Positions 38,364 to 41,477 of a stretch of DNA of 64,000 nt are shown here, one piece after another. The number at the start of each line of letters is the position of its first letter. Position 1 is the stretch's first letter. The DNA lies in the NCBI RefSeq assembly GCF_030269685.1, contig NZ_BSTT01000001.1, positions 1-64,000 on the forward strand, written 5' to 3'. The DNA is from Actinomycetospora sp. NBRC 106378 (GTDB taxonomy: Bacteria; Actinomycetota; Actinomycetes; Mycobacteriales; Pseudonocardiaceae). Position numbers and translations under genes: made by a program. The notes under the pieces were generated by a model that saw nothing but the letters and a program-made list of their open reading frames with translations, was not told the DNA's origin and ran no database searches.

Positions 38364-39521
38364 GTGGACCCGTCCGACTTCGCCGACGTCCTGACCTCGG
38401 TCCGCGAGTTCGTGCGCGAGCAGGTCGTGCCGCGCGAGGACGAGATCGAGGAGACCGACGAGGTCCCCGCCGAGCTCCGCGAGGCGTGCAAGGCCATGGG
38501 CCTCTACGGCTTCGCGATCCCCGAGGAGCACGGCGGGATCGGGCTGTCGATGGCCGAGGAGGTCGAGCTCGCGATGGAGCTCGGCTGGACCACCCCGTCG
38601 CTGCGTTCGCTGTTCGGCACCAACAATGGCATCGCCGGGCAGGTCCTGCTCACCGGTGGGTCGCCCGAGCAGCAGGCCGAGTGGCTGCCGCGGCTCGCGT
38701 CCGGCGAGGTGGTCGCCTCGTTCGCGCTGACCGAGCCCGACGCCGGGTCCGACCCGTCCTCGCTGACCACGAAGGCGGTCCGCGACGGCGACTCCTGGGT
38801 CATCTCCGGCGCGAAGCGCTGGATCACCAACGCGCCGTTCGCCGACGTCCTCATGGTGTTCGCCCGCACCGACCCGGACGCCGCGCCCGCCCGTGGCATC
38901 TCCACCTTCCTCGTCCCGACCTCCTCGCCCGGGGTGAGCTTCTCCGAGCACGACGCGAAGATGGGCCAGCGCGGGTCGTGGACCTGCGAGGTCTACCTCG
39001 ACGACGTCCGGGTGCCCGCCGAGAACCTCGTCGGCGGCGAGGAGGGTCTGCACCGCGGGTACGTCACCGCGCTGAAGTGCCTCGCGCACGGCCGGCTGCA
39101 CATCGCGGCGCTCTGCATGGGGATGGCCGCGCGCCTCGTGCACGAGACCGTCGAGTTCGCCACCCAGCGCGAGCAGGGCGGGCACGCGATCGCGACCTAC
39201 CAGCTCGTCCAGGGCCTCGTCGCCGACTCCGTGACCGACTGGCACGCCGGCCGCGCCCTGGTCCGCGAGGCGGCGAAGGCCTACGACGACGGGTCCGACA
39301 AGGTCACCGGCCCGTCCACCGCGAAGTACTTCTGCTCCGAGGCGGTCGGGCGGATCGCCGACCGCGCGGTGCAGGTCCACGGCGGGTCGGGCTACATGCG
39401 CGGCGTCCCGGTCGAACGCATCTACCGGGACGTCCGGCTCTTCCGCATCTACGAGGGCACGAGCCAGATCCAGCAGGTGATCATCGCGCGCGGTGCACTG
39501 GGCAAGGCCGCGCGTTCCTGA
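38364..39521 (+). CDS. Acyl-CoA dehydrogenase
   Basis: A 385-residue FAD enzyme with a GTG start. FAD/substrate motifs are ASFALTEPDAGSDPSSL and WVISGAKRWITNA, and the catalytic Glu lies in IYEGTSQIQQ near the C-terminus, so unlike the enzyme at 22155 it has the short/medium-chain-type base. A strong hairpin terminator follows 10 bases after the stop. Confidence 0.94.
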   Translation: MDPSDFADVLTSVREFVREQVVPREDEIEETDEVPAELREACKAMGLYGFAIPEEHGGIGLSMAEEVELAMELGWTTPSLRSLFGTNNGIAGQVLLTGGSPEQQAEWLPRLASGEVVASFALTEPDAGSDPSSLTTKAVRDGDSWVISGAKRWITNAPFADVLMVFARTDPDAAPARGISTFLVPTSSPGVSFSEHDAKMGQRGSWTCEVYLDDVRVPAENLVGGEEGLHRGYVTALKCLAHGRLHIAALCMGMAARLVHETVEFATQREQGGHAIATYQLVQGLVADSVTDWHAGRALVREAAKAYDDGSDKVTGPSTAKYFCSEAVGRIADRAVQVHGGSGYMRGVPVERIYRDVRLFRIYEGTSQIQQVIIARGALGKAARS

Positions 39522-39530
39522 CGACGGGTG

Positions 39531-39564
39531 GTGCCCGGCTCCCGGCGCGCGCCGGACCGGGCAC
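39531..39564. terminator. Long hairpin after acyl-CoA dehydrogenase
   Basis: Outer arms GTGCCCGG (39531-39538) and CCGGGCAC (39557-39564) enclose the perfect palindrome CCGGCGCGCGCCGG (39542-39555). It lies directly after the stop and should end transcription. Confidence 0.8.
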
Positions 39565-39594
39565 GTCGGTGTGCACCTGCCGGTCGGCCGGGCG

Positions 39595-39728
39595 ACCCGT
39601 GAGGATTCTGCGCGTCCCGCACACAGTCCGGTCGGCCCGGCTACCGACTCGTCCGACCCCTACGCGCCACGCACACACTCGGGTCCCTCCGGCCACCGAC
39701 TCGTCCGACCCCTGCGCGCCACGCACAC
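39595..39728 (-). repeat. Left array: three repeats with 52-bp period
   Basis: Repeat ends (CGCACAC) fall at 39624, 39676 and 39728, exactly 52 bp apart. The units at 39643-39676 and 39695-39728 agree in 33 of 34 bases; the outermost is diverged. Read on the minus strand, each begins GTGTGCG and continues with an (A/G)CGCG(C/T)AG core, matching the right array in inverse orientation. Confidence 0.88.
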
Positions 39729-39792
39729 GACAGGAGCGGGCCCAACGCCGCCGGAGTGCCCTCTCGTCCCTTCCTGCGCCGATTCCGTGCAG

Positions 39793-39883
39793 CTTGTCGT
39801 GGTCATCCGCGCGACCACGTTCTCCCTGTCGCGCTGGATCAGAACGACAAGGCATCGGGCGATCGCCGGAACCCGCGACAGGG
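39793..39883. other. Centre of symmetric element with interleaved inverted repeats
   Basis: The stretch between the two arrays has three perfect inverted repeats: CTTGTCGT/ACGACAAG (39793-39800, 39844-39851), CGTGGTC/GACCACG (39798-39804, 39813-39819) and CCCTGTCGCG/CGCGACAGGG (39824-39833, 39874-39883). The first and third are interleaved, so they would form either a pseudoknot or alternative structures. No ORF is credible here. Confidence 0.6.
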
Positions 39884-39891
39884 CCGGCAGG

Positions 39892-40022
39892 TGTGTGCGC
39901 GACGCGCAGGGGTCGCCACCACCGAGCACCGGCCCCGCCGGACTGTGTGCGCCACGCCCAGGGGTCGCCACCACCGAGCACCGACCCAGCCGGACTGTGT
40001 GCTCCACTGGCAGGCGTCGCCA
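39892..40022 (+). repeat. Right array: three repeats with 52-bp period
   Basis: Units begin at 39892, 39944 and 39996, 52 bp apart, with TGTGTGC followed by a CAGG(G/C)GTCGCCACC core. The first two share CAGGGGTCGCCACCACCGAG over a long run; the third is diverged. They are in opposite orientation to the left array. Confidence 0.88.
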
Positions 40023-40160
40023 CCCCCGTAGCGCCGGCCCCCGCCCTGGGCGCCTCACCCGGCGTGCGCCCAAGGACCCGGCCCCACCCGCCGTCGGGAA
40101 CGCGGCGTTCCTGCCACTGGGCGACAGCAACGACGCTTTCCTGGCACGAGGGTGGGGGCG

Positions 40161-41477
40161 TCAGCGCAGGGCCAGACGCTCCCGGAGGGTCCCGCCGACG
40201 GGGACCGCCGGCATCCGGCCCCGGCGCCGCAGCTCGGGGACCACGTGGTGTGCGACCTGCTCGAACGTCCCGGGCACGACGGCGTAGGCGAGGTTGAACC
40301 CGTCCGCGCCGGTCTCGTCGACCCAGTGCTCCATCTGGTCGGCCACCTCGGCACCGGAGCCCACGGCGACCGGGCCCCGCCCGCCGACGGCGAGGTGGCG
40401 GGCGACCTCGCCGACGGTCCACTCGCGGGTCGGGTCGTCGGTGGTGAACGAGGCGAGGGCGGACCGGCCGGCGTCGGACTCGACGTAGCGCAGCGGCTGG
40501 TCGGGGTCGATGCCGGTGAGGTCGAGCCCCGTCCAGCCCGCGAACAGGGCCAGCGCGCCCTCGAGGGAGAACGACGCGAGGTACTCCGCGTACAGCGCGT
40601 CGGCCTCCGCGGAGGTCGCGGCCACCACCGGGGCGAGCTGGCAGAACACCGTGACCGAGGCCGGGTCCCGGCCGGCGTCGGACACCGCCGACCGGAGCCG
40701 GTCGACCTGGCCGGCGAGCACCGTCGTGGACGGCCCGGAGATGAACACCGCCTCCGCGTGCCGACCCGCGAACGCCAGCCCGCGCGGCGAGGCGCCCGCC
40801 TGGAAGATCACCGGCGAGCGCTGCGGGGAGGGCTCGCAGAGGAAGGGGCCGGGGACGTCGTACCAGCGGCCGTGGAAGGCGATGTCGTGCACCTTCGCCG
40901 GGTCGGTGTAGGTCCCGCCGGAGCGGACGACGGCGTCGTCCTCCCACGACTCCTCCCAGAGCCGCCGGCACACCTCGAGGTACTCGTCGGCCTGCTCGTA
41001 GCGCTGGTCGTGGGCGACCTGCGCACCGAGGCCCAGGTTCGCCGCGGCGCTGGCCAGGTAGCCGGTGACGACGTTCCAGCCGACGCGGCCCTTCGTCAGG
41101 TGGTCGAGCGTGGTGAAGCGTCGCGCGAGGGCGTACGGGTGCTCGTAGGACGTGGAGACCGTCACGCCGAAGCCCAACGACGACGTCACCGCCGCCATGG
41201 CCGAGACCGGCATCATCGGGTCGCCGAGCGGGATCTGGATGCCGGCGCGGACGGCCGCGTCGCGCGAGCCGCCCGCCACGTCGTAGACCCCGAGCACGTC
41301 GGCGAGGAAGAGCGCGTCGAACCCGGCGTCGTCGAGCAGGCGCGCCAGGGACGTCCAGTGGTCGAGGTCGGTGTAGCGGAACCCCTCGTCGGCCGGGTGC
41401 TGCCAGAGCCCCGGCGACTGGTGGCCCGCGCACATCATGGCGAAGGCGTTGAGGTGGATCCTCGGGCGGGCGGGCAT
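40161..41477 (-). CDS. LLM-class flavin-dependent monooxygenase (NtaA/SnaA/DszA type)
   Basis: A 438-residue two-component monooxygenase using reduced FMN from a separate reductase. It has the family start (IHLNAFAMMCAGHQSPGLW), the GRVGWNVVTG motif and QAGASPRGLAFAGRHAEAVF. Members oxidise nitrilotriacetate, dibenzothiophene sulfone and related compounds. Start and the MaoC stop overlap by one base (TGATG), so it is coupled to that gene. Confidence 0.92.
   Translation of the reverse strand: MPARPRIHLNAFAMMCAGHQSPGLWQHPADEGFRYTDLDHWTSLARLLDDAGFDALFLADVLGVYDVAGGSRDAAVRAGIQIPLGDPMMPVSAMAAVTSSLGFGVTVSTSYEHPYALARRFTTLDHLTKGRVGWNVVTGYLASAAANLGLGAQVAHDQRYEQADEYLEVCRRLWEESWEDDAVVRSGGTYTDPAKVHDIAFHGRWYDVPGPFLCEPSPQRSPVIFQAGASPRGLAFAGRHAEAVFISGPSTTVLAGQVDRLRSAVSDAGRDPASVTVFCQLAPVVAATSAEADALYAEYLASFSLEGALALFAGWTGLDLTGIDPDQPLRYVESDAGRSALASFTTDDPTREWTVGEVARHLAVGGRGPVAVGSGAEVADQMEHWVDETGADGFNLAYAVVPGTFEQVAHHVVPELRRRGRMPAVPVGGTLRERLALR

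Follow-up and report, generated by a model that had tools for sequence, protein, structure and literature searches.

Foldback (FB) transposons of eukaryotes are dispersed elements whose long inverted ends are built from short repeats in tandem, with a variable number of copies in each arm and a middle that is heterogeneous or missing. The ends of Mu and Tn7 each carry several directional transposase-binding sites, which face opposite ways around any cargo, and the rve domain is typical of transposases of this type. The REP/RAYT system is defined by Y1 transposases, actinobacterial bidirectional hairpin terminators sit between convergent genes, and the mycobacterial MIRU/VNTR loci are intergenic and consist of units of about 50 bp, repeated in tandem in variable copy number. 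REPIN clusters and evenly spaced tandem REP arrays have been described in Pseudomonas fluorescens (PMC3116915), and a table of REP counts in PMC12306157 includes three species of Actinomycetota, none of which belongs to Actinomycetospora.

The window analysed here is the whole stretch of 64,000 nucleotides from Actinomycetospora sp. NBRC 106378 (genome G000). The 639-bp stretch 39522-40160, the gap between two convergent metabolic genes, holds one copy of a clade-specific family of dispersed, non-coding intergenic elements (Table 1), whose foldback-like layout, inverted arms of tandem repeats with a variable or absent middle, was encountered at 55 two-armed loci. The first-pass annotation had described three left and three right copies, and its coordinates are exact to the base (left ends at 39624, 39676 and 39728 on the minus strand; right starts at 39892, 39944 and 39996 on the plus strand), as is the period of 52 bp in both arrays. 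By eye, the best two left copies are identical in 33 of 34 bases, as it had also stated. The outermost units are degenerate, departing from the 20 fixed bases of the test motif at five (left) and four (right) positions.

Table 1. Features in and around the intergenic element of the window
Feature	Position	Strand	Remark
Acyl-CoA dehydrogenase, flanking gene	38364..39521	+	
Left half of the palindrome ACGRCGGGTG...CACCCGCCGT	39521..39530	no strand	palindrome unbroken in G002
Outermost left unit	39602..39624	-	degenerate second half CGCGCAGAATC
Left unit	39654..39676	-	core GTGTGCGTGGCGCGTAGGGGTCG
Innermost left unit	39706..39728	-	core GTGTGCGTGGCGCGCAGGGGTCG
Centre, second dispersed palindromic family	39776..39890	no strand	2+2 TGTCG/CGACA copies
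Innermost right unit	39892..39915	+	core TGTGTGCGCGACGCGCAGGGGTCG
Right unit	39944..39967	+	core TGTGTGCGCCACGCCCAGGGGTCG
Outermost right unit, degenerate	39996..40019	+	4 mismatches in motif scan; under matrix-mapping threshold
Third dispersed repeat family, CACCCGCCGTCGGGAACG...CGACAGCAACGACGC	40075..40160		at same site in G002, where arrays are absent
Right half of the palindrome ACGRCGGGTG...CACCCGCCGT	40085..40094	no strand	CACCCGCCGT
Luciferase-like monooxygenase, convergent flanking gene	40161..41477	-	start codon from crude gene finder

Comparison of the region with its own genome yielded 50 matches, to different parts of the region. The profile of 254 seed units, of which the seed motif itself fixes eleven positions, displays a conserved core of about 24 bp, ggaGTGTGTGCG-NSN-CGCGCAGG, with imperfect dyad symmetry, and the other 28 bp carry little information. 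Read as TGTGCG-NSN-CGCGCA, the core is a short imperfect palindrome with unequal halves, and the arms built from it are inverted. A pattern of two cores separated by a free gap of 24-54 bases retrieved 33 pairs from the own genome, 30 of them with a start-to-start distance of exactly 52, and the same pattern read backwards retrieved none, so that the claim of a regularity beyond chance is borne out. Across a collection of 84,980 species, the pattern matched 98 stretches; among the 80 listed of these 98, the 32 Actinomycetospora loci are spaced by 52 in 68 of 85 pairs and the 48 other loci in 0 of 62.

Mapping of the units with a core-weighted matrix identified 17 elements in the own genome, 15 of which are two-armed, with the left array on the minus strand and the right array on the plus strand; an additional pair is located at C2:707946. 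Together with strain TBRC 11914 (G009, 23), A. chiangmaiensis DSM 45062 (G014, 11) and A. soli SF1 (G016, 12), these make up 63 clusters in four species. Exactly 52 bp separate the units in 172 of the 210 same-strand spacings, followed by 51 (15 cases) and 50 (6), a regularity which, like the conservation of the core, is inflated by the mode of unit detection and by the choice of the loci in G009, G014 and G016 mainly for having a 52-spaced pair; the free-spacing pattern searches are thus the fairer check of the period. The orientation rule is equally regular: 54 of 55 two-armed loci (307 units) face fully outward, and a single weak unit, in L192, breaks the rule, after opposite-strand matches lying on a stronger unit had been discarded. 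Arms comprise up to nine same-facing units, and the length of the centre varies between loci from 4 to 600 bp and, at the site orthologous to that of the window, is 165 in the window, 194 in G016 and 206 in G014.

Three further genomes, G006, G002 and that of A. endophytica TBRC 5722 (G015), carry a second type of unit, in which the second half of the core is CGCAACG or similar, instead of CGCGCAGG. The commonest same-strand spacing is 48 bp in G006 (37 cases), 49 bp in G002 (6) and 50 bp in G015 (16), counts which include many two-mismatch chance hits of the first mapping. Orientation was recounted more strictly, leaving out perfectly palindromic units because they have no direction, and all 15 two-armed loci among the 23 examined point outward. 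The outward rule covers two-armed loci; one arm alone passed in 8 of the 63 clusters of the 52-bp mapping and at 8 of the 23 loci of the 48-50-bp type, the latter showing one arm or none at that stringency.

Core and linker evolve very differently. Between adjacent units of an arm (70 pairs with exact spacing), the core differs at 4.0% of positions, the linker at 25.5% and the inner trinucleotide at 24.8%. In a comparison of 172 units, linker identity is 77% within an arm, 42% between the two arms of a locus, 43% for different loci of one genome and 40% for different genomes; the inner trinucleotide is shared in 58% of in-arm comparisons, 5.4% of those across arms and 9.1% of those between loci of a genome. 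Linkers thus are alike within arms and not across them, which argues that each arm grows by its own tandem duplication while the core is held, and the preservation of the spacing between unrelated linkers points to a constraint on length. Given this mode of arm growth, the whole structure might be a functionless accident of local duplication. This is very unlikely, because the same orientation rule applies at unrelated loci in seven species, the core has changed about six times less than the linker and the spacing is kept despite unrelated linkers; paired inverse arrays with conserved spacing were found again in related genomes, which contradicts the 'local accident' that the first-pass annotation had kept in view.

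The same comparisons bear on several other candidates. A CRISPR array, which that annotation had already set aside together with a tRNA cluster in favour of an ordered symmetric element, does not fit, given that the similarity of in-arm linkers and inner trinucleotides is not that of unrelated spacers. No cas genes are among the 25 listed of the 128 families encoded beside the arrays (91 of 124 flanking references) or among the four neighbours in the window. The scan of the window for tRNA genes was negative. Pairing of the arms, as RNA or cruciform, was rejected as the selected feature, since the copy numbers of left and right arms are weakly correlated (Spearman 0.25, p = 0.052) and neither linkers nor trinucleotides are more alike across arms. 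Helical phasing is attractive for the period of 52 bp and less so for 48-50 bp; that 48, 49, 50 and 52 do not all correspond to whole helix turns speaks against the docking model favoured below. A special palindromic outermost unit was suggested by eye, but counts with a noisy chain finder gave no support for it.

The first-pass annotation had treated an interleaved stem centre as an integral part of the element. The inverted repeats on which this was based are present by eye (CTTGTCGT/ACGACAAG at 39793/39844, CCCTGTCGCG/CGCGACAGGG at 39824/39874, and CGTGGTC at 39798 with GACCACG at 39813), and the stems interleave because two TGTCG and two inverted CGACA copies can pair in nested or interleaved fashion. 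However, the centre belongs to a separate dispersed palindromic family. Both A. soli (G016) and A. chiangmaiensis (G014) have a related centre at this site, as does an element of G006, and members of the family occur elsewhere in the own genome without arrays (L034, L036, L040, L041, L057, L058 and L059; single five-mismatch motif hits in L034 and L059 were counted as noise). At eight of the mapped loci the centre measures 4-25 bp, so that the palindromic centre of the window is cargo or a later guest. None of the ten centres longer than 240 bp contains a called gene, that is, no autonomous copy was seen among them. Another recurring centre, approximately GTGCACACCACGC...CCTGCCCCACGTGCACCTCGCG, replaces the CGACAAGG centre at L037, L228, L224 and L236. 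The third repeat family of the window (CACCCGCCGTCGGGAACG...CCACTGGGCGACAGCAACGACGC, 40075-40160) has numerous copies in several genomes of Actinomycetospora, among them G002 and G006, both of which are devoid of 52-bp arrays.

The arrays are preferentially located at gene ends. With a crude codon-based gene finder and sites with flanking genes of at least 100 aa, convergent gene pairs flank 22 of 62 array sites, compared with 30 of 225 pairs of neighbouring genes elsewhere (Fisher p = 1.6e-4); 33 sites lie between tandem genes and 7 between divergent ones, and at the tandem sites the array is closer to the upstream stop (median 46 bp) than to the downstream start (118 bp; p = 0.008). Such a position would be expected both if insertions that damage promoters are avoided and if the elements have a role at gene ends. 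Among the 25 listed of 128 Pfam families, none stands out beside the arrays: even the commonest are represented by 3 of the 91 flanking proteins covered, out of 124 references. One rival explanation builds on this position and holds that the element is a bidirectional transcription end or insulator, where the polymerase arriving from either gene meets same-sense units and is stopped by RNA hairpins or a roadblock protein. Besides the gene context, it would account for the other palindromes found at several array-free orthologous sites and for the predicted fold of the element (39601-40025), which is more stable than 60 shuffled sequences on both strands (z = -4.2 and -5.3). Yet hairpins of single units barely surpass shuffled sequences (-7.3 versus -6.1 and -4.5 versus -3.7 kcal/mol, 317 units), no terminator of the type with a GC stem and a U-tract was matched in the stretch 39400-40300, the linkers of the two arms are no more alike than those of different loci, and the enrichment itself depends on the crude codon scorer. 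Moreover, the units face outward at tandem and divergent genes too, so that their orientation is independent of transcription, and we consider this explanation unlikely.

The strong predicted fold of the whole element could also be that of a small non-coding RNA gene, one of the possibilities raised in the first-pass annotation. Against this, the window has no Rfam match at gathering score, no sigma-70-type promoter was matched in 39400-40300 by a scan that is ill suited to actinobacteria, the centre and copy number vary, and linkers of opposite arms show no extra likeness. An RNA gene is accordingly highly improbable.

The distribution of the arrays is limited within the genus. In a tree of the acyl-CoA dehydrogenase gene from 18 genomes, a single-gene tree with a midpoint root for drawing, a fully supported branch separates eight genomes, which include those of the array-bearing species, from the other ten. 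The seven array-bearing genomes are G000, G002, G006, G009, G014, G015 and G016. The free-spacing pattern has no match in any of the ten genomes beyond the split; the fixed pattern with two mismatches has one match on that side, in G001, and its reversed control likewise has one in G011 and one in G016. G013, which lies on the array-bearing side and is 59% complete, has no free-spacing match and one two-mismatch match per strand. The 52-bp and 48-50-bp types are intermixed on the array-bearing side, indicating, on this single-gene tree, that the type changed more than once. In a sample of 150 genomes of the bacterial family to which the genus belongs, 6 of them from the genus, nine pairs were detected outside the genus in four genomes, compared with one for the reversed control; six of the nine stem from an unrelated 24-bp repeat in one genome and the remaining three are single pairs.

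These limits bear on a further rival, according to which the arrays are fixed chromosomal sites bound by a nucleoid organiser or gyrase or used for the loading of condensin, which are not mobile themselves and have been spread by duplication and kept by selection. A conserved core, regular spacing, dispersed sites and positions common to several species would all agree with such a role, and the idea of a 'DNA-bound boundary' from the first-pass annotation is likewise compatible with the conserved core, free linkers, fixed spacing and gene-end position. A further idea of that annotation, a replication or segregation site, is not supported as a single site, given the 17 elements mapped in the own genome alone. 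Unlike an essential chromosome system, moreover, the arrays are present or absent at orthologous sites in close relatives and lack any free-spacing match in the ten genomes across the split, which makes a fixed chromosomal site improbable in our view.

Array units occupy the orthologous site in at least one other species for 14 of the 17 own-genome loci (L035 on the evidence of a single unit), the other three being L029, L033 and L042. At the L024 site, arrays are found in five species. Those of G000, G014 and G016 are of the 52-bp type (with a 53-bp pair in G016), and the pairs of G002 and G015 are spaced by 49 and 50 bp, respectively, each with a single arm that satisfies the strict test. 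A different palindrome occupies the site in G009. In G002, a close relative, none of the 14 sites that could be recovered has a 52-bp-type unit; two of them contain a 49-bp pair of the type proper to G002, and a third, L037, scattered units of that type. At L032, the empty site is clean, the distance between the convergent stop codons being one base in G002 and two bases in G014. At the window site, the palindrome TGACGGCGGGTGCGCGCACCCGCCGTCGGG is unbroken in G002; in the window species, as in G014 and G016, its two halves flank the element. The presence and absence at shared sites suggest gain and loss of elements. No consistent target-site duplication was apparent by eye in the pairs of empty and filled sites. 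The one clear copy within the genome, that of L032 (2112-2406) at L033 (2034-2329), spans 298 bp and includes about 100 bp of the tail of the neighbouring gene, with the array part better preserved than the gene tail by eye; here the copying overran the ends of the element, and at least some of the spread thus is segmental rather than clean transposition.

Unrelated long palindromes are present at several array-free orthologous sites and absent from others, suggesting that gene ends may be slots for structured elements. Such palindromes, some in two to three copies, were seen at L255, L246, L245, L249, L226, L235 and L234, examples being GAGTGGACCG..., GTGAGGGGA..., GTCAGCGGTGG... and CAAGATC...GATCTTG. 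We also noticed, after the fact, that 13 of the 14 array sites of the window species that could be placed on the G002 chromosome fall within the first 3.4 of its 6.17 Mb.

Taken together, these observations lead us to favour, tentatively and at somewhat less than even confidence, a lineage-specific, foldback-like intergenic element with arrays that dock a putative protein. The observations themselves establish the family, its orientation rule, period and core conservation, the independence of the arms, the limits within the genus and the presence or absence at shared sites, and the protein, its multimer and the mobility are inferred. Each element consists of two arrays in which the 24-bp core, directional and imperfectly dyad, is repeated in tandem at a species-specific period, pointing outward from a centre of any length. 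The element would most likely serve as a multi-site docking platform, on which the putative protein reads the core and contacts adjacent copies at a set distance; the opposed arrays would then form the ends of one nucleoprotein complex, comparable to transposon ends with repeated binding sites. Arms would lengthen by tandem duplication, and whole elements would be copied, lost and replaced in step with the specificity of the protein, persisting mainly at the 3' ends of genes, where they would harm neither gene. Docking arrays for a protein that multimerises along DNA and joins two arms would be expected to have conserved directional cores, linkers free to vary, a regular spacing, arms in opposition and a centre that does not matter, as is the case here. 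That core and period change together between species suggests that both are set by a partner acting in trans.

A bolder interpretation is possible but rather doubtful, namely, that the arrays represent a new class of repeat system, in which a putative trans-acting protein that measures the distance between cores sets the period genome-wide. Whole genomes would then switch together between the 52-bp and the 48-, 49- or 50-bp types, partly at the same sites, a scenario to which we assign an equally modest likelihood. If true, such genome-wide switching of the period would be a bacterial parallel of the concerted evolution of satellites or foldback elements. There is a fair chance that the arrays, as a variant of dispersed intergenic inverted-repeat elements, deserve a class of their own; no description of such an element was encountered in the open-licence literature searched, which is weak evidence of novelty. 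In any case, the family is one in which the coordinated replacement of dispersed DNA sites in different bacterial genomes can be put to the test, and comparison of the seven array-bearing with the ten array-free genomes should lead to the partner protein. In addition, the elements explain one class of the otherwise blank intergenic regions in Actinomycetospora.

Among the known systems, the REP, BIME and REPIN repeats share with the Actinomycetospora units their short, directional, imperfectly palindromic and intergenic nature, the inverted doublets and the species specificity (compare the features given for them in PMC3116915 and PMC3733652). Mobilisation of the arrays by a Y1 (RAYT) transposase could explain the inverted arms, and the REPIN clusters and evenly spaced tandem REP arrays of P. 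fluorescens mentioned above (PMC3116915) lend it some plausibility. We nevertheless set this explanation aside as extremely unlikely, since PF01797 (Y1_Tnp) was detected in 0 of the 18 genomes of the genus and in 5 of 14 control genomes, although a divergent HUH enzyme could escape the model. Apart from residing in a genus in which no Y1 transposase was found, the arrays differ from these repeats in forming two opposed arrays around a centre and in keeping one period across the unrelated loci of a species.

Similarly, the elements resemble the ends of Mu and Tn7 in having several directional repeats on each side, oppositely facing and around any centre, but no cargo genes were seen in them and the centre can be as short as 4 bp. 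Present mobilisation of the Mu/Tn7 type is not supported in the single-contig, array-bearing G002, in which the rve domain has no match; in G006 it has one match, below the cut-off. Compared to bidirectional hairpin terminators, the arrays are not one stem, lack a U-tract and are oriented independently of gene direction. With MIRU/VNTR loci they have in common intergenic tandem units of about 50 bp, variable copy number and an actinobacterial host, but each locus has two opposed arrays and about half of each unit is conserved. Closest in architecture, and in architecture alone, are the foldback transposons as generally described. From these, the Actinomycetospora elements differ in being bacterial, in their size of a few hundred base pairs, in having no autonomous partner that we could see and in lying mostly at gene ends, and they are set apart by arrays with a species-specific period and a core conserved far above the linker.
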